The notes under the pieces: model-generated | Told to the model about the DNA's origin: nothing | Database searches by the model: none | Seen by the model: the letters and a program-made list of their open reading frames with translations, nothing else | Origin: an uncultured Hyphomicrobiales bacterium | Lineage (GTDB): Bacteria > Pseudomonadota > Alphaproteobacteria > Rhizobiales > Aestuariivirgaceae | Assembly: GCA_903951595.1 (NCBI GenBank) | Contig: CAJBCQ010000023.1 | Coordinates: forward strand, 1 to 32,604 | Direction of reading: 5' to 3' | DNA length: 32,604 bases | Translations under genes and position numbers: made by a program | Part shown: positions 8,575 through 32,604 of the stretch, in pieces | Layout: each line of letters begins with the position of its first letter | Position numbering within the stretch: the first letter of the stretch is position 1

Positions 8575-9231
8575 ATGGATCGTCTGCATCTGGTTATCGG
8601 GAATAAGAATTATTCGTCATGGTCGCTGCGGCCTTGGATTGCGCTGAGGGAGAAGGGTGTTGAGTTCACCGAAACATTGATCCCGCTCGACATGCCGGAT
8701 ACGGCCAAGATGATCGTGGCGGAAAGCCCGGCCGGTCGGGTTCCGGTGTTGAAGCATGGGGGGCTGGTGGTTTGGGAGTCGTTGGCCATTCTGGAATATG
8801 CCGCCGATGTTTTTCCCGATCGTGGGTTTTGGCCAGAGGGGCCGAAGGCGCGGGCGATTGCGCGCAGTGCGGCCAATGAGATGCATGCCGGTTTCATGGC
8901 TTTGCGCGGGGCCTGCCCGATGAATCTGCGTCGGGCGCGTAAGCCTGTGGCGATGGACAACAAGGTGCTTGCGGATGTGCGGCGCATTGAGGCGCTTTGG
9001 GCCTACTGCCGCAGTACTTATGGCCAAAACGGGCCGTTTCTGTTCGGTGCTTTCAGTAATGCAGATGCCATGTACGCGCCTGTCGTGACGCGCTTGGACA
9101 CATACGACATTTCTGTTTCAGCCCAGACGCGGGATTATATGGAGGCTGTGATGGACACCGCCTCTTTCAAGGCTTGGAAAGAAGCGGCCTTGCAGGAAAC
9201 TTGGATTGTGCCTTCGGATGAAGTGGATTGA
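8575..9231 (+). CDS. Glutathione S-transferase family protein (first of tandem pair)
   Basis: The 218-residue protein has an N-terminal thioredoxin-like domain (about 1-80) and a helical C-terminal domain (about 90-210). The N-terminal motif NKNYSSWSLRPW (residues 10-21) places the presumed glutathione-activating serine around 14-15; PAGRVPVL supplies the cis-proline that holds glutathione, and WESLAILEY is the gamma-glutamyl-contact block. This resembles the YfcF-like/GST_N_3 group. It may conjugate or reduce electrophiles in the cytoplasm; the substrate is unknown. AGGGAAAAG precedes the ATG at 8575. The next gene is a paralogue starting 0-3 bp after this stop. Confidence 0.88.
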   Translation: MDRLHLVIGNKNYSSWSLRPWIALREKGVEFTETLIPLDMPDTAKMIVAESPAGRVPVLKHGGLVVWESLAILEYAADVFPDRGFWPEGPKARAIARSAANEMHAGFMALRGACPMNLRRARKPVAMDNKVLADVRRIEALWAYCRSTYGQNGPFLFGAFSNADAMYAPVVTRLDTYDISVSAQTRDYMEAVMDTASFKAWKEAALQETWIVPSDEVD

Positions 9232-9234
9232 GTG

Positions 9235-9888
9235 ATGGCTGATTTGAAGCTCTATATCGGCAATAAGTGCTTTTCTTCTTGGTCCTTGCGGCCCTGGATG
9301 GCGCTGAAAATGGCTGGAATTGCGTTCGTCGAGGAAGTGATCCGCCTGCGCCAGCCGGATACGAAAGCCAAGATTCTCAAAGTTTCACCGCATGGCAAGG
9401 TGCCGCTGCTGGTGCATGGTGAGGTGAAGGTTTGGGAAAGCCTCGCCATTTTGGATTATATCGCGGATGCTTTTCCGCAGGCAAAGCTGTGGCCAGCGGA
9501 TCCGGTCGCGCGTGGCTTGGCGCGTTCCGTGGCTGCGGAAATGCATGGCGGTTTTGCTGATTTGCGGAATCAATGGGGCATGAATTTACGCAAGCCTCGC
9601 ACGCATAAGCCCTTGGTTGATGCCGCCATCGCGCAAGGCGCGCGTATTGAAGCAATTTGGGAAGAATGCCGCGCAAAGCATGGTGCTGGCGGGCCTTTCC
9701 TGTTCGGTCAATTCACGTGTGCGGATGCCATGTATGCGCCTGTTGTCTCTCGCTTCCACACTTATGGCGGTGAACTGTCGCCCGTGACGCAAGCCTATTG
9801 CGATGCCATGTTGGCAACGCCTGCCATGCGGGAATGGTTTTCGGATGCCGCAAAAGAAAGCTGGCCGGAGCCGGATCCCTTCGAATAA
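9235..9888 (+). CDS. Glutathione S-transferase family protein (second of tandem pair)
   Basis: The 217-residue protein has the same layout as its upstream neighbour: NKCFSSWSLRPW near residues 8-19, PHGKVPLL with the cis-proline, WESLAILDY, and a helical C-terminal half with FLFGQFTCADAMYAPVV. Shared blocks along the full length show a tandem duplication followed by divergence. I chose ATG 9235; a GTG at 9232 directly after the upstream TGA is also possible and adds one residue. Translation is likely coupled to the first GST. Substrates are unknown; the pair may form a heterodimer or have split substrate ranges. It ends 52 bp before the Mrr gene. Confidence 0.87.
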   Translation: MADLKLYIGNKCFSSWSLRPWMALKMAGIAFVEEVIRLRQPDTKAKILKVSPHGKVPLLVHGEVKVWESLAILDYIADAFPQAKLWPADPVARGLARSVAAEMHGGFADLRNQWGMNLRKPRTHKPLVDAAIAQGARIEAIWEECRAKHGAGGPFLFGQFTCADAMYAPVVSRFHTYGGELSPVTQAYCDAMLATPAMREWFSDAAKESWPEPDPFE

Positions 9889-26789: not shown

Positions 26790-27533
26790 ATGACATCCCA
26801 ACCGCCAGCCGGCGCTGTTCCCCGACATGTTGCCATTATCATGGATGGCAATGGTCGCTGGGCTAAGGCGCGGATGTTGCCGCGTTCAGCGGGGCATTTG
26901 GCGGGGGTGGAGACGGTGCGGCGCATCATCCGCCATTCGCGCGAGATTGGGCTTGAGCATTTGACGCTTTATGCTTTTTCGTCGGAAAACTGGTCGCGGC
27001 CGCCGGCGGAGGTGGGCTATCTGATGGGGCTTTTGCGGACGTTCATTCGCCGCGATGTTGTCGCTTTACACAAGGACAATGTACGCATTCGCCTCATCGG
27101 CGGTCGTGATGATCTTGAAAGCGGGCTTTCCGAGCTGTTTGATAATGCGGAAGTTAAAACCGCGCAGAACACGGGTTTACGGGTTACGGTTGCCTTCAAT
27201 TATGGAAGTCGCCAGGAAATTGCCAACGCGGCGCAGTTGGCCGCGCGCGCGGTTTTGGAGGGCAGGCTGAAGCCGGAGGAGATTACGCCCGATAGGCTTT
27301 CGGATTTCATGTATACCGCCGGAAGCCCTGATCCTGATCTGTTGATCCGCACGAGCGGCGAGAAGCGGATTTCCAATTTTCTGCTGTGGCAATGTGCCTA
27401 TACGGAGTTTGTGTTCGTGCCGGAAGCTTGGCCTGATTTTACCGGTGAGATCATGGATCGCGCCATTGGCGAATACATGTCGCGCGAGCGCCGCTTTGGC
27501 GGCTTGCCGCAGGCCAAGGCGGAAACCGCATGA
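26790..27533 (+). CDS. uppS: Undecaprenyl pyrophosphate synthase
   Basis: The 247-residue cis-prenyltransferase elongates farnesyl-PP to the C55 lipid carrier for peptidoglycan and O-antigen. Motifs are HVAIIMDGNGRWAK (catalytic Asp19), LTLYAFSSENWSRP, and the closing DPDLLIRTSGEKRISNFLLW. ATG 26790 is used; a TTG at 26763 lies in the frr end and is rejected. The ribosome site is weak (GGGGT at about 12 bases). The stop overlaps the cdsA ATG (ATGA), implying coupled translation. Confidence 0.97.
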   Translation: MTSQPPAGAVPRHVAIIMDGNGRWAKARMLPRSAGHLAGVETVRRIIRHSREIGLEHLTLYAFSSENWSRPPAEVGYLMGLLRTFIRRDVVALHKDNVRIRLIGGRDDLESGLSELFDNAEVKTAQNTGLRVTVAFNYGSRQEIANAAQLAARAVLEGRLKPEEITPDRLSDFMYTAGSPDPDLLIRTSGEKRISNFLLWQCAYTEFVFVPEAWPDFTGEIMDRAIGEYMSRERRFGGLPQAKAETA

Positions 27534-28363
27534 ATGGGCCTGCAATGACATCTGAAACGGCTTCATCCGGGCGTTGGCGTGACCTTGGGGTGCGCGGCCT
27601 TTCGGCGGCCGTGCTCATTCCAGTTGTGCTGGTGGATGTGTGGCTGGGTGAGTGGTGGTTTGTGGCCTTTGTGGCCGTGCTGATGGTTCTGTGCGCGCGC
27701 GAATATGTGCGGATGGCGGCGGTCGGGGATCGGTTGCAATTGAGTCTGCATGCGGCGGGTGCGATTGCTGGGGCTGTGCTGCCGGTTGCGGCGGGCGTTG
27801 CGGTGGCGTTGGCGGTGATCGCGAGCCTGTGGGTTTGCAGTGTGAGTGCCTATCTGCTGCAACGGCGTCGGCATGATCTGTTTGCGCTGTTGGGGCTTGG
27901 TTATGTTTCCATTCCAGCCCTTTCGCTGGTTGTGCTGCGGGCGGACCCGCAGGCGGGGCTCGTTTCCATCTATTGGCTGTTTTGTGTCATCTGGATGGCT
28001 GACACGATGGCCTATTTCGCCGGTCGCCTGATTGGAGGGCCGAAGCTTTGGCCGGCCATTTCACCGAAAAAGACATGGGCTGGATTGTTCGGAGCGATGG
28101 CAGGGGCGGTGATGGCCAGTGTGGCGGTGATTTTGGCCGCAGGGCTTTCCTTCAGCTTTTCGCTCATTGTGATGGCGGCAGTTCTGGCCGTGGTGGAGCA
28201 GGGTGGCGACCTTTATGAATCCGCGCTCAAGCGCCAGGCGGGGGTGAAGGATTCCGGCACGCTCATTCCCGGTCATGGTGGGGCGCTGGACCGGGTGGAT
28301 GGCTTGCTGGCTGCCGCAACGGCAGCTTGGGCGTTAAACATGATGGGACTTCTCAACTGGTAA
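27530..28363 (+). CDS. cdsA: Phosphatidate cytidylyltransferase
   Basis: The 277-residue integral membrane enzyme makes CDP-diacylglycerol, the precursor of all phospholipids. About eight hydrophobic segments precede the signature SALKRQAGVKDSGTLIPGHG, followed by GALDRVDG (about 235-262), with the invariant KDxG and PGHGGxxDRxD residues intact. The start overlaps the uppS stop (ATGA); an ATG at 27545 is an alternative. In many relatives dxr follows; here a 71-bp gap leads directly to rseP. Confidence 0.96.
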   Translation: MNGPAMTSETASSGRWRDLGVRGLSAAVLIPVVLVDVWLGEWWFVAFVAVLMVLCAREYVRMAAVGDRLQLSLHAAGAIAGAVLPVAAGVAVALAVIASLWVCSVSAYLLQRRRHDLFALLGLGYVSIPALSLVVLRADPQAGLVSIYWLFCVIWMADTMAYFAGRLIGGPKLWPAISPKKTWAGLFGAMAGAVMASVAVILAAGLSFSFSLIVMAAVLAVVEQGGDLYESALKRQAGVKDSGTLIPGHGGALDRVDGLLAAATAAWALNMMGLLNW

Positions 28364-28434
28364 TCCGCTTTGCCACTACCGTATCGCGAGCGCATGCCTA
28401 TATAGTTGATAAGTTCTGAATTGGAGGTTTGCCC

Positions 28435-29571
28435 GTGAGCTTTGTTTCCGCCATTGCTGGAGATGTTTACAATTTCGGCTTTTATGCCGTGTCCTTCATC
28501 TTCGTGCTCACCCTCATTGTTTTCGTTCACGAATACGGCCATTTCATCGTGGGGCGGTGGTGCGGCGTGAAGGCGGAAACCTTTTCCATCGGCTTTGGCC
28601 GCGAGATTGTGGGTTGGAGCGATAAGCAGGGCACGCGCTGGAAAGTGGGTTGGATTCCGCTTGGCGGCTATGTGAAGTTTGAAGGCGACGCCAATGCGGC
28701 CAGCATGCCTTCTACGCCGGAATTGGAGGCGCAGGCGCAGCGTTCAGCGACGAATTTCCACGGTAAGGCGGTTTGGCAGCGATCACTGGTGGTGGCGGCG
28801 GGGCCGATTGCTAATTTCATTCTGGCAATCGCCTTGTTTTCGATGGTGTTTGCGGTTGTTGGCGTGCCTGTCACCTCGCCGCAGGTAGACAAGGTTGTAG
28901 AGGCGAGTGCTGCCGAAAAAGCCGGCGTTCAGCCCGGCGACATCATTGTTTCGGTGAATGGCGAGGCCATTGAAACCTTTAGCGACATTCAGCGCATTGT
29001 GATGCCGCGCGCTGGCGAAGCCTTGCCGGTGGTGATTGAGCGCAAGGGCGAGGAAGTGCGCGTGACGCTGACGCCGCAGGCAACCGAAGTGGATGATGGT
29101 TTTGGCGGAAAGGTTCGCATTGGCCTGATTGGCGTCAGCAATGACCAAACGACGCGCAGTTTTGAGCGCAAGGGGCTCATCGAATCCCTGCAATTGGGCA
29201 CGCTGGAGACCTGGCGGGTGGTGGAGGGAACCGGGCATTTTATCGCCCGCATTTTCGCCGGACATGGCGGGGCGGACCAGCTGGGTGGGCCCATCGCCAT
29301 TGCCCAGATTTCCGGGCAGGCGGCTTCTCTAGGCTTTTACGAGTTGCTCCGCATGGCGGCCCTGCTGTCGGTAAGCATTGGCCTCATCAATCTGTTCCCC
29401 ATTCCCATGCTGGATGGCGGGCATCTGGTCTATTACGCAATTGAGGCCTTGCGGGGTAAGCCCGTGGGGGCGAAGGCGCAGGAAATCGGGTTCCGCATCG
29501 GCTTTGCCATGGTGCTGGCGCTGATGGTGTTTTCCACTTGGAATGACATCATGCGGATCACGCGGTTCTAG
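28435..29571 (+). CDS. rseP: RIP zinc metalloprotease RseP (site-2 protease, MmpA-like)
   Basis: The 378-residue inner-membrane protease starts at GTG 28435, which has GGAGG seven bases upstream; TTG 28429 is less likely. The HExxH site is HEYGH (His32, Glu33, His36) in TM1, and the third metal ligand is Asp327 in the LDG motif of NLFPIPMLDGGH. One PDZ domain lies at about 145-215 (AEKAGVQPGDIIVSVNG), fewer than the two in E. coli RseP but usual in alphaproteobacteria (MmpA of Caulobacter). It cleaves membrane anti-sigma factors, signal-peptide remnants or cell-cycle proteins. Four membrane segments are visible. Confidence 0.96.
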   Translation: MSFVSAIAGDVYNFGFYAVSFIFVLTLIVFVHEYGHFIVGRWCGVKAETFSIGFGREIVGWSDKQGTRWKVGWIPLGGYVKFEGDANAASMPSTPELEAQAQRSATNFHGKAVWQRSLVVAAGPIANFILAIALFSMVFAVVGVPVTSPQVDKVVEASAAEKAGVQPGDIIVSVNGEAIETFSDIQRIVMPRAGEALPVVIERKGEEVRVTLTPQATEVDDGFGGKVRIGLIGVSNDQTTRSFERKGLIESLQLGTLETWRVVEGTGHFIARIFAGHGGADQLGGPIAIAQISGQAASLGFYELLRMAALLSVSIGLINLFPIPMLDGGHLVYYAIEALRGKPVGAKAQEIGFRIGFAMVLALMVFSTWNDIMRITRF

Positions 29572-29706
29572 TGGTTTACGTAATGTAAAGGTGGGAAGGA
29601 ATACAACCAGATTCTTGGGTTTGCATCCTGGCCGAAACAGCGTAAAAGATGCTCTGGTATTCGGATTCTGCTCTTGACGGGGCGTCCTATTCTGAAGTGA
29701 GGACTA
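29572..29706 (+). promoter_or_regulatory. rseP-bamA gap with weak promoter candidate
   Basis: The 135-bp gap has no terminator. TTGCAT (29621-29626) and TAAAAG (29643-29648), 16 bp apart, could be a weak promoter for bamA. A small inverted repeat TTTAC-GTAAT-GTAAA lies just after the rseP stop. GTGAGGA precedes the bamA ATG. Confidence 0.3.
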
Positions 29707-32046
29707 ATGCGTCATCTCTCTGTTTTTAAAGCGTTTTCTGCCTTTTTGTTCGGTATCTGCCTGCTGAGTTCAGCGGTAGGGTTGGCAAGTGGCGTGGCGC
29801 AGGCAGCGGGGCTTTCGGCCATCGTTGTGCAGGGCAATCAGCGCGTTGAGGCCGATACGGTGCGCTCCTATATGCAGATCCAGCCCGGCGAAACGGTTAC
29901 AACCGACAAGATCGACGCCTCGGTGAAGGCGCTGTTCCAGACGGGGCTGTTCGCGGATGTAAAGATTAGCCAGAATGGCAGCCAACTTACTGTTGTTGTT
30001 GAAGAAAATCCGCTCATCAATAAGGTTGATTTCGAAGGCAATAGCGAGATCAAGCAAGACGCGCTGAGCAAGGAAGTGGAGCTGAAAGAGCGCCTGGTGT
30101 TCACCCGCGCCAAGGTCCAGTCCGATGTGCAGCGCGTGATTTCTCTTTATCGTCGCTCGGGCTATTTCGCTGCCCGTGTGGAGCCGAAGATTATCCGCCT
30201 GCCGCAGAATCGCGTGAATCTCGTATTCGAGATCGATGAAGGTGTTTCGACGCGCATCGCGCGCATCAATTTCGTCGGCAATAAAGCTTTCACGGACAGC
30301 CAGTTGCGCTCGTCCATCTCGACGGCGCAAAGCAGCTGGTGGAAGTTTTTCTCGACCTCCGACAATTATGATCCGGATCGGTTGAACTACGACAAGGAAT
30401 TGCTGCGCCGCTATTACCTCAAGAACGGCTATGCCGATTTCCGCGTGGTTTCGGCCAATGCTGAACTAGCGCCGGATGCGGAGAGCTTCTACATCAACTT
30501 CACGGTGGAAGAAGGTCCGCGCTATGAGATTGGCAATGTGTCGGTGAATACCGGCCAGACTTCGCTGGATGCCAAGTCGTTGGAAGCGGCCATCCGCACG
30601 CCTTCAGGCTCGCAATATGATGCCAGCCGCATTGATCGCACGGTGGAAGCCATTGCGGTGGAAGCCGGTAAGAGCGGTTTTGCTTTCGCCAAGGTGGATC
30701 CGCAAATCGAGCGTGATGCGGAAAACCGTAAGCTCAACATCGTCTACAATGTGCAGGAAGGCCCGCGCGTTTACATTGAGCGCATTGATATCCGTGGCAA
30801 TATTCGCACGCTGGATGAAGTGATCCGCCGCGAAATGCAGTTGGCGGAAGGTGATGCTTATAACCGCGTGTTGGTGGATCGTGCCCGCCGCCGCCTGATT
30901 GGTCTCAACTTCTTCCAGGCTGTTGATTTCCGGGAAGAGGCTGGATCTTCGGCGGATCGGCTTGTGCTGGTTCTTGAGGTTCAGGAAAAATCGACCGGCG
31001 CTTTCAGTGTCTCGGCTGGTTACTCCTCGGCTGAAACGCTGATTGCCTCGGTCGGTATTCAGGAACGCAACCTGCTGGGTCGGGGCCAGAACATCAATCT
31101 GAACACCACGCTGAGCTTCAAGCGCCAGACGGTGAACTTCGCCTTCACGGAGCCTTATTTCCTCGGTCGCCGCGTTTCGGCCGGTGTGGATGCCGTGATC
31201 TCGCGCAATGACCTCAAGGATGAAGCCTCTTACACGAATGAGCAGTTCGGTGGCGGCTTCCGCTTCGGTTTCAAGCTCGACGAAGACCAGTCTTTGACCA
31301 CGCGCTACAGCCTGATCCATCGTGACTTGCAGACAACCGACAGCGCGCCGGTTGCCATTCAGGAAGCGGAAGGCACTTCGGTTAAGTCTGCCGTTACACT
31401 TGGCTATGCGTTCGACACGATTGATAATCCGGCAAGCCCCACCTCCGGCTTCCGTATCAATCCGACGGTGGAACTGGCCGGGCTTGGTGGGGATGTGAAC
31501 TATGTGAGTGGCGAAATCTCGTCCTTCTATTTCCATCCGATAACCGAGGGTATCGTCTTCAAGCTGAAGGGTACGGGTGGCCAGCAGGCTGGGTTCAGCG
31601 GCGAGGATGTGCCGGTGCTCGATCGCTTCTATAAGGGCGGTGACAGTTTCCGCGGCTTCGCTTCCAGCGGCATTGGCCCGCGTCAGGAAAAGGAAGATGG
31701 CGGCAAGCGCAGCTCTATTGGTGGCACGACCTATGCCATTGGTACGGCGGAAGTTATCTTCCCGCTGGGTCTTCCGGAAGAATTCGGCCTATCGGGTTCC
31801 GTGTTCTCTGATTTCGGTACGCTGTTCGGTGCGCCGGAAGAAGAAGGCAAGGGCAAGTGTAACAATGCTGGCCTGAACACGGAATGCAGTGTTTGGGATA
31901 CGGCGGCTTTCCGTGGCTCGGCTGGTGCCGGTGTGACTTGGGAATCGCCCTTCGGCCCCTTGCGCTTTGATGTGGCTTATCCGTTCGCCAAGGCTGACTA
32001 TGATGAGACCGAGTATTTCCGGTTCAGCATCGGCAGCAAGTTCTAA
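29707..32046 (+). CDS. bamA: Outer membrane protein assembly factor BamA
   Basis: The 779-residue protein inserts beta-barrel proteins into the outer membrane. A signal peptide (hydrophobic about 9-30, cut near AQA-AG at about 33) is followed by five POTRA domains (about 35-430; first begins LSAIVVQGNQRVEADTV). The 16-strand barrel covers about 440-779, with the RGF motif of loop 6 in DSFRGFASSGIG near 647-658, and ends in a terminal Phe (SIGSKF) as required for Bam recognition. The ATG at 29707 has GAGGA upstream. Extracellular loops contain a CNNAGLNTEC pair that may form a disulfide. A terminator follows, then fabZ; lpxD is not between them. Confidence 0.98.
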   Translation: MRHLSVFKAFSAFLFGICLLSSAVGLASGVAQAAGLSAIVVQGNQRVEADTVRSYMQIQPGETVTTDKIDASVKALFQTGLFADVKISQNGSQLTVVVEENPLINKVDFEGNSEIKQDALSKEVELKERLVFTRAKVQSDVQRVISLYRRSGYFAARVEPKIIRLPQNRVNLVFEIDEGVSTRIARINFVGNKAFTDSQLRSSISTAQSSWWKFFSTSDNYDPDRLNYDKELLRRYYLKNGYADFRVVSANAELAPDAESFYINFTVEEGPRYEIGNVSVNTGQTSLDAKSLEAAIRTPSGSQYDASRIDRTVEAIAVEAGKSGFAFAKVDPQIERDAENRKLNIVYNVQEGPRVYIERIDIRGNIRTLDEVIRREMQLAEGDAYNRVLVDRARRRLIGLNFFQAVDFREEAGSSADRLVLVLEVQEKSTGAFSVSAGYSSAETLIASVGIQERNLLGRGQNINLNTTLSFKRQTVNFAFTEPYFLGRRVSAGVDAVISRNDLKDEASYTNEQFGGGFRFGFKLDEDQSLTTRYSLIHRDLQTTDSAPVAIQEAEGTSVKSAVTLGYAFDTIDNPASPTSGFRINPTVELAGLGGDVNYVSGEISSFYFHPITEGIVFKLKGTGGQQAGFSGEDVPVLDRFYKGGDSFRGFASSGIGPRQEKEDGGKRSSIGGTTYAIGTAEVIFPLGLPEEFGLSGSVFSDFGTLFGAPEEEGKGKCNNAGLNTECSVWDTAAFRGSAGAGVTWESPFGPLRFDVAYPFAKADYDETEYFRFSIGSKF

Positions 32047-32070
32047 AGGCTAGCGGCTTGATCGAAACGG

Positions 32071-32103
32071 AAACGGACGGCCTTCGCGCCGTCCGTTTTC
32101 TTT
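32071..32103 (+). terminator. Intrinsic terminator between bamA and fabZ
   Basis: AAACGGACGGC (32071-32081) pairs perfectly over 11 bp with GCCGTCCGTTT (32088-32098) around CTTCGC, followed by TTCTTT. It lies 25 bp after the bamA stop and 16 bp before the fabZ ATG, where lpxD stands in many related genomes. Confidence 0.85.
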
Positions 32104-32118
32104 GAAAAGGATAGGACG

Positions 32119-32592
32119 ATGACGACTGAAGCCCCGGCGACATTGCAGCAGGCTGACATCAACCGGATCATGCAGCTTTTGCCGCATCGCTATCCGTTTC
32201 TGCTGATTGACCGGATCATCGAGATGAATGGCGAGCAGTCGGGAACCGGCATCAAGAATGTGACCTATAACGAGCCTTTCTTCCCCGGTCATTTTCCCGG
32301 CAATCCCGTGATGCCCGGCGTCTTGCTGGTGGAGGCGATGGCGCAGACGGCAGGCGCGCTCGTCATGAATAACTTAGGTGGAGATGACGAAGGCCGGATC
32401 GTCTATTTCATGTCGATCGATAAGGCTCGTTTCCGCAAGCCGGTATTGCCCGGCCATACGGTGCATTTTCCGGTGAAGCTCATCCAGAAGCGCGCGCCTG
32501 TATGGCGCTTTTCGTGCGAGGCGCGGGTGGATGGTGCGCTGATGGCAGAGGCGGAAATCAGCGCCATGTTGATGGGCAAGCCAAAGACCTAA
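32119..32592 (+). CDS. fabZ: 3-hydroxyacyl-ACP dehydratase FabZ
   Basis: The 157-residue hot-dog-fold enzyme removes water from 3-hydroxyacyl-ACP in type II fatty acid synthesis. Catalytic residues are His58 in [14 protein letters not shown] and Glu72 in LLVEAMAQ; the start [13 protein letters not shown] is the standard FabZ block. ATG 32119 follows AAAGGATAGG. In most proteobacteria lpxA follows fabZ; only 12 bases remain in the window, so this cannot be seen. The adjacent terminator means fabZ needs read-through or a very close promoter. Confidence 0.97.
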
Positions 32593-32604
32593 CCAACGCC
32601 GCTG

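Follow-up and report, generated by a model that had tools for sequence, protein, structure and literature searches.

The 32,604-nucleotide stretch analysed here (the window) is an entire contig (CAJBCQ010000023.1 of assembly GCA_903951595.1; G000:C23 in our numbering) from an uncultured Hyphomicrobiales bacterium whose own genome, G000, comprises 2.72 Mb in 264 contigs and is rated 100% complete. Lipid A is the usual outer-surface lipid, and an earlier note on this DNA had claimed that lpxD is missing between bamA and fabZ, which lie 72 bp apart, and that either the gene has moved or the strain makes altered or no lipid A. The coordinates and the curated models agree with the first part, as a gap of 72 bases leaves no room for lpxD, and the question that the locus raises is what became of lipid A in this organism. 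The explanation that we favour, with a probability of about 0.78, is that lipid A synthesis was lost in the common stock of the family of the window (f1) and a second family (f5), and that the outer leaflet would now be ceramide-based, loaded by a second type of LptF/LptG permeases (LptF2/LptG2) and inserted by a retained LptD.

Genome-wide searches were made in 60 genomes, 36 of them from f1 (G000 included) and the other 24 each representing a different family of the order, so that families f5 (G039), f7 (G041) and f15 (G049) are covered by one genome each. The profiles were PF04613 for LpxD, PF03331 for LpxC, TIGR01852 for LpxA and PF04413 for KdtA, and matches over the curated cut-off were counted. 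In the case of G000, LpxD had no match anywhere in the genome, LpxC and KdtA were not found, LpxA had no match over cut-off, and LptD was found; a normal lpxD elsewhere was thus not found, and the suggestion that the gene had moved was not borne out. Furthermore, none of the 36 f1 genomes had LpxD, LpxC, LpxA or KdtA, versus 21, 22, 21 and 19, respectively, of the 24 genomes from other families, 18 of which contained all four. The absence of LpxC, of KdtA and of LpxA over cut-off throughout f1 supports the other option of the earlier note in its strong form, that no lipid A is made. A loss confined to the strain of the window was rejected, as the same absences were found in the other 35 f1 genomes (35/35). 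The f5 and f15 genomes likewise had none of the four over cut-off. In the f7 genome, LpxC and KdtA were present, LpxD and LpxA were not found and BamA was not found either, so that the bamA-lpxD-lpxA locus is probably absent from this assembly; the KdtA search was also negative in G040, G042 and G058. Genomes in few contigs, namely G017 (1 contig), G021 (4), G014 (8) and G012 (9), also had none of the four genes, which argues that assembly gaps are not the cause; such compact assemblies also suggest that there are isolates.

That LptD had been lost together with lipid A was rejected, because it is retained in 34 of the 36 f1 genomes (PF04453); it is also present in f5, f7 and f15. The G000 protein scores 187.7 bits with PF04453 (cut-off 22.4) and is encoded in the order lptD-surA-pdxA-ksgA, and its identification relies on both. 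The neighbourhoods of the gene differ: lptF-lptG stands directly upstream of lptD in all 14 loci of lipid A makers that were inspected (14/14) versus none of 12 loci from lipid A-less genomes (the G000 contig begins at lptD), and, of the lipid A-less genomes, none of the 36 that have LptD (34 from f1, plus f5 and f15) showed LptF or LptG within 10 kb of it on the same contig. As a separate observation, G017 carries a second LptD copy (L188, G017:C1:3050000-3063500) followed by a surA fragment only, with resolvase- and transposase-like open reading frames nearby, these being recognized by reading only.

The genes of a different lipid are found in the same genomes. The aminotransferase family gave 16 matches in G000, among them a serine palmitoyltransferase (SPT; NF047599, 581.7 bits, cut-off 500), the best solved-structure matches of which are the serine palmitoyltransferases 2x8u and 2jg2. 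NF047599 was over cut-off in 36 of the 60 genomes, comprising 33 of the 36 from f1 together with f5, f7 and f15, and in none of the other 21 families. The f1 exceptions (G008, G034 and G035) gave strong partial matches. An SPT sequence is thus present in each of the 38 lipid A-less genomes (those of f1, 36 in number, plus f5 and f15), 35 over cut-off and three partial. The nearest outsider, with 467 bits, just below the cut-off, is G054, a lipid A maker from another family.

In G000, spt belongs to a cluster on contig C86, in which an ABC exporter, a GNAT-type protein, a nucleotidyltransferase, a phosphoesterase, a HIT-like protein (by reading only), lptF and lptG are followed by a CDP-alcohol phosphotransferase, a lipid-kinase-like protein and a protein that matched no family; the opposite strand carries spt and, after it, the genes for a carrier protein, a reductase of the epimerase type and a fatty acyl-AMP ligase (NF006624, 747.5, cut-off 600). 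The ABC exporter reached no NCBIfam cut-off among the 25 models listed. The GNAT-type protein is at the Pfam threshold (20.9 vs 20.7) and we take it to be a putative ceramide synthase (CerS-like), and the reductase appears to be CerR-like. The set formed by spt and the genes for the carrier, the reductase and the ligase is complete in 17 of 20 SPT neighbourhoods (15 of 16 when f1 ones only are counted), and lptF and lptG accompany it in 13 of the 20 and weakly in a 14th (G054), with some stretches ending early. A GNAT-type gene was found in 13 of 24 SPT neighbourhoods (L148-L167 and L203-L206), and three of these gave an ABC exporter match of nearly full length. The G054 neighbourhood (L166, G054:C1:190500-210000) brings together, within ~9 kb, the distant SPT (467 bits), a gene resembling CerS (37%) and divergent copies of LptF and LptG, and may be a ceramide cluster of another kind.

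The two LptF/LptG proteins of this cluster are the only ones that PF03739 finds in G000, and exactly two were found in 30 of the 36 f1 genomes. The G000 pair falls below the cut-offs of the lipopolysaccharide (LPS) equivalogs (209.6 of 230 for TIGR04407 and 194.3 of 240 for TIGR04408), in a comparison that covers this pair and not the classical rows. Of the 35 f1 genomes compared (G008 was excluded, its SPT being in pieces), 20 have one or more LptF/LptG matches less than 15 kb from SPT, as do f5, f7 and G054. In a first tree of 77 sequences, covering 19 of the 36 f1 genomes, LptF of f1, f5 and f15 grouped with the SPT-linked LptF of f7 (Shimodaira-Hasegawa approximate likelihood ratio test, SH-aLRT, 93), the LptD-linked LptF of 15 genomes formed a separate group (100), and LptG was split likewise (99 and 99). 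We call the first of these types LptF2/LptG2, names that are borrowed from the putative counterparts in Caulobacter. With profiles built from the four groups, the typing was then extended to the remaining f1 genomes, so that all 36 are covered, and to a further six lipid A makers. Every newly added f1 copy was of the second type, mostly by hundreds of bits, except for a divergent pair in G003; extra copies of a divergent kind, related to LptF2, occur in G004, G011, G016, G021, G026 and G033. A 123-row tree, which leaves out ten rows (long branches or duplicates, from G021, G041, G049 and G054) and retains the second copy of a G049 row, again separated the second type (98 for the LptF2 side, 41 rows; 88 for the LptG2 side, 37 rows) from the classical one (LptG 99, 22 rows; LptF 86, or 93 once two very long rows are removed). 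All 36 f1 genomes thus have LptF and/or LptG nearest the second type and none was assigned to the classical one; LptG2 is present in 34 of them, with G008 and G027 having a partial LptF2 only. The classical type was found in all 21 lipid A makers with a match (21/21), G058 having none. The f7 genome has both pairs, the classical one beside its single LptD match and the second type beside SPT, together with LpxC, KdtA and the ceramide genes. Purely as a description, there are alignment positions at which the two types are cleanly distinguished; column 92 of the LptG alignment, for instance, is arginine in 15/15 classical rows and tryptophan in 22/22 second-type rows.

These data bear on what the outer leaflet contains. 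As membrane composition is deduced here from genes, the sphingolipids could be minor components of a leaflet made mainly of phospholipid, hopanoid or ornithine lipid, with LptD serving another purpose. We consider this unlikely, since among the 25 families SPT is over cut-off only in the three lipid A-less ones and in f7, and the permeases that have been retained are of the kind linked to ceramide genes. The conservation of LptD in 34 of the 36 f1 genomes suggests that some lipid is presumably exported, and this could also be lipid A or a similar glycolipid made by unrelated enzymes and still carried by LptD. However, the losses extend to KdtA and the classical LptF/LptG and the SPT sequence is found in every lipid A-less genome, so that we regard a lipid A of unrelated origin as slightly less probable still.

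The traces of the loss can be read around fabZ. In L011, a Rhizobiales record from a genome with LpxC, the order is rseP-bamA-skp-lpxD-fabZ-lpxA-lpxI-lpxB, followed on the opposite strand by gltA and gltX (named by reading), and L115 presents the order bamA-lpxD-fabZ-lpxA; lpxD stands after bamA in all six loci of lipid A makers that were read around bamA, as in the gene order that the earlier note had given for many alphaproteobacteria. L009, which is identical to contig L116 of G018 and whose BamA is 59% identical to that of the window, reads rseP-bamA-fabZ and then gltA and gltX on the opposite strand with no lpx match, the lipid A blocks on both sides of fabZ being missing. No lpxD was seen in any of the 22 f1 loci read around bamA, and fabZ adjoins bamA in 19 of these. 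The exceptions are G001 (genus g2), in which gltA comes immediately after bamA and fabZ is not adjoining, G009 (also of g2), with neither fabZ nor gltA within 1.5 kb of bamA, and G013, in which bamA is truncated at the contig end and the downstream region is unreadable. The f5 and f15 loci present bamA-fabZ as in f1, and longer stretches continue as fabZ-gltA-gltX, plus comEC where the stretch is long enough, with a fabZ-gltA spacing ~2.4 to 2.5 kb larger in G017 and G006. The genes lpxA-lpxI-lpxB do not follow fabZ in readable members of the lineage, lpxB and lpxI being judged at the locus only and lpxB not being searched genome-wide.

Genes do relocate in this group, as shown by fabZ, which is away from bamA in G001 and G009, and by dxr, which is off its usual place in some members, and a simple rearrangement would have moved lpxD and the other lipid A genes and left lipid A normal. 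Nevertheless, it would require undetectably divergent copies of four enzymes, since KdtA is missing from G000 and its 35 relatives and LpxD, LpxC and LpxA never reach the cut-off there, while the same searches work in most other families and in the controls, which makes it very improbable. An artefact of a fragmented or mixed assembly, as might be suspected from the 264 contigs of G000 and from a window that stops just after fabZ, hardly deserves consideration given the equal losses in 35 relatives, including a one-contig genome, and the gltA visible past fabZ in relatives.

According to the explanation that we favour, the bamA-fabZ gap would be one scar of a lipid A loss in the common stock of f1 and f5, with f15 seemingly representing a second loss. 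At this locus, the deletions would have taken lpxD from upstream of fabZ and lpxA-lpxI-lpxB from the interval between fabZ and gltA, and fabZ was presumably kept because it is needed for fatty acid synthesis; LpxC, KdtA and the LptD-linked lptF-lptG would have been lost too. The sequences themselves show the absent genes, the scars, the ceramide genes, the persistence of LptD and the separate grouping of LptF2/LptG2; from gene linkage and co-occurrence we infer which lipid is made, that it occupies the outer leaflet and what the Lpt machine carries. The ceramide lipids would be built by the products of the C86 cluster (CerS-like, spt, carrier, CerR-like, acyl-AMP ligase, kinase-like and CDP-alcohol phosphotransferase), the ABC exporter may flip them across the inner membrane, LptF2/LptG2, encoded beside the ceramide genes, would load them onto the Lpt bridge, and the retained LptD would place them into the outer membrane. 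The ceramide genes and the exchange of LptF/LptG go beyond what the earlier note had expected.

Several observations weigh against this explanation. Regarding the lipid A genes, there are sub-cut-off matches to PF04613 in G006, G017 and G027, to PF03331 in G008 and, twice, to TIGR01852 in G000, weak TIGR01852 matches being common to most genomes and to the whole set of 14 controls, as expected of a repeat-type protein. Regarding LptD, the PF04453 search found none in G015 and G028, and the G000 protein is far under the NCBIfam cut-offs (115 of 683 for NF002997 and 64.3 of 944 for NF003358). Ceramide genes alone do not imply a loss of lipid A, because G054 makes lipid A and yet has an SPT-like protein. 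Moreover, LptF/LptG are not near SPT in 15 of the 35 f1 genomes compared, nor in f15; this is often due to the separate contigs of broken assemblies, but in G002, an assembly of 20 contigs, the distance is real. Just one LptF/LptG is near SPT in G011, G021 and G033, whose other copies are divergent, and an extra divergent pair of G003 (G003:C170, L228) is not firmly assignable (94 vs 32 bits and 77 vs 70 bits). The f15 genome has, in addition to its second-type pair, one LptG of the classical group, and everything that is deduced for f5, f7 and f15 depends on one genome each. The solitary f15 LptG is found beside a very divergent PF03739 protein (L183, G049:C197) in a genome without lipid A genes, and is perhaps a relic.

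The order of the losses was approached with a PdxA+KsgA tree of 23 genomes, in which the f15 row is just 37% filled. In this tree, f7 groups with f15 (99/97) and f5 with f1 (96/91), and the four families are joined more weakly (83/77); the lipid A state needs two changes, and one change is allowed in 0 of 200 bootstrap trees. A BamA tree supports f1+f5 (SH-aLRT 100) and leaves f15 unplaced. The simplest story is that the ceramide genes came first with their own LptF/LptG, alongside a working LPS as in f7, and that the lipid A genes, KdtA and the classical LptF/LptG were afterwards lost in f1+f5 and separately in f15, G041 being the apparent expected intermediate; a single ancestral loss followed by a regain in f7 is less simple. 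A bolder version, that we put forward tentatively and at somewhat less than even odds, is that LPS was replaced by sphingolipid twice in one order, with LptD kept and the gate in the inner membrane alone exchanged, so that LptF2/LptG2 would set the cargo and LptD, probably with the bridge, would carry anything. In such a case the living intermediate would be G041, which has the two gates and one LptD match, and the route of bacterial sphingolipids to the outer membrane would be explained.

The features of the window around the junction are collected in the table below; the contig stops at position 32604 and the gene past fabZ is out of view for G000.

Table. Features at the bamA-fabZ end of the window (positions in the 32,604-nucleotide stretch)
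Feature	Positions	Strand	Evidence
cdsA (phosphatidate cytidylyltransferase), probable	27530..28363	+	NF008635 98.5 bits, under cut-off 385; position matches cdsA of L009 and L011
rseP (RIP metalloprotease)	28429..29571	+	TIGR00054 287.7 bits, cut-off 147.55
bamA (outer membrane protein assembly factor), left deletion flank	29707..32046	+	TIGR03303 770.9 bits, cut-off 297.15
bamA-fabZ junction, 72 bases; site of lpxD (skp-lpxD in some relatives) in lipid A makers	32047..32118	+	
Hairpin, 13-pair stem, possible terminator	32069..32100	+	Fold of the 72 bases, minimum free energy -27.9 kcal/mol
fabZ (3-hydroxyacyl-ACP dehydratase), kept	32119..32592	+	TIGR01750 190.2 bits, cut-off 155.15

With respect to the terminator with an 11-bp stem that had been proposed at the junction, 11 of the 13 pairs of the hairpin do form an unbroken Watson-Crick run, and the folding of the junction has a z of -2.35, with 5 of 200 shuffles equally stable. 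Its function as a terminator is plausible and goes no further, because the hairpin is absent from the output of a consensus terminator scan; its U run sits within the stem. Two other observations concern the window. The dxr gene, found between cdsA and rseP in L009, L011 and several family members, is missing there (28363-28429), as it is at the same locus in G004, G006, G012, G017 and G021, and it is present in G002, G007, G014, G018, G039 and G049. Positions 8575-9888 hold two adjacent open reading frames of 218 amino acids, mutually similar and glutathione S-transferase-like (by reading only), which could be a tandem duplication.

An LPS-free envelope based on sphingolipids is already known. 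The closest case is that of Sphingomonas and its relatives (Sphingomonadales), which have glycosphingolipids and no LPS; Sphingomonas is naturally without lipid A and makes sphingolipids (PMC10964400, PMC11087976, PMC11324152). The f1 genomes resemble it in being without LpxD, LpxC, LpxA (over cut-off) and KdtA and in having serine palmitoyltransferase, and differ in that their lineage is probably in another order than Sphingomonadales; furthermore, the orthologues of the Caulobacter cluster reported for S. wittichii and Zymomonas, ceramide genes included, are scattered (PMC11324152), whereas in f1 spt, carrier, reductase and ligase are together in 15 of 16 neighbourhoods. A survey of 2020 described sphingolipids as apparently restricted to Sphingomonadales within the class (PMC7179689), and Caulobacter has since been known to make them. 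The cluster of Caulobacter crescentus (CC_1168-CC_1152) comprises aasR, cerR, acpR, spt, cerS, CPG genes, LptC2, LptF2 (CC_1156), LptG2 (CC_1155) and a flippase, and a 2024 paper proposes that LptC2/LptF2/LptG2 and the possible flippase carry sphingolipids, the transport itself being stated as not known (PMC11324152). Contig C86 of G000 gathers similar kinds of genes, its own LptF/LptG pair included, and its putative counterparts of the five-gene Caulobacter set (aasR, acpR, cerR, spt, cerS) fit by family, size and place, with spt recognized by a curated model. Unlike f1, in which no classical pair was found, Caulobacter has LPS and the Lpt genes of its cluster are second versions (PMC11324152). 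Caulobacter mutants can also survive without lipid A through anionic sphingolipids (Zik et al. 2022, as described in PMC10964400), so that in both cases a sphingolipid would support a life free of lipid A, in one strain under a laboratory condition there and as an apparently fixed state of families here. A bacterial ceramide kinase has been described (PMC10331486).

In comparison with the classical LPS exporter LptB2FG-C-A-DE, the lineage has retained LptD (PF04453) in lptD-surA-pdxA-ksgA and LptF/LptG of the same family (PF03739), but those of G000 are below the TIGR04407/TIGR04408 cut-offs and fall in separate tree groups. As of 2024, PMC11087976 states that no sphingolipid flippase or transporter had been identified, and in searches of the open-licence literature no title or abstract reported such a lipid A loss or LptF2/LptG2 transport. 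What is apparently new in this work is that the families are apparently outside the known case, together with the synteny scars, the apparent intermediate and the consistency with which the type of LptF/LptG is exchanged while LptD stays. These are families in which lipid A seems to be naturally dispensable, and their lineage represents a natural gene-exchange experiment, in which the classical LptF/LptG disappeared along with the lipid A enzymes and the Kdo transferase, leaving LptD and the ceramide-linked LptF/LptG.

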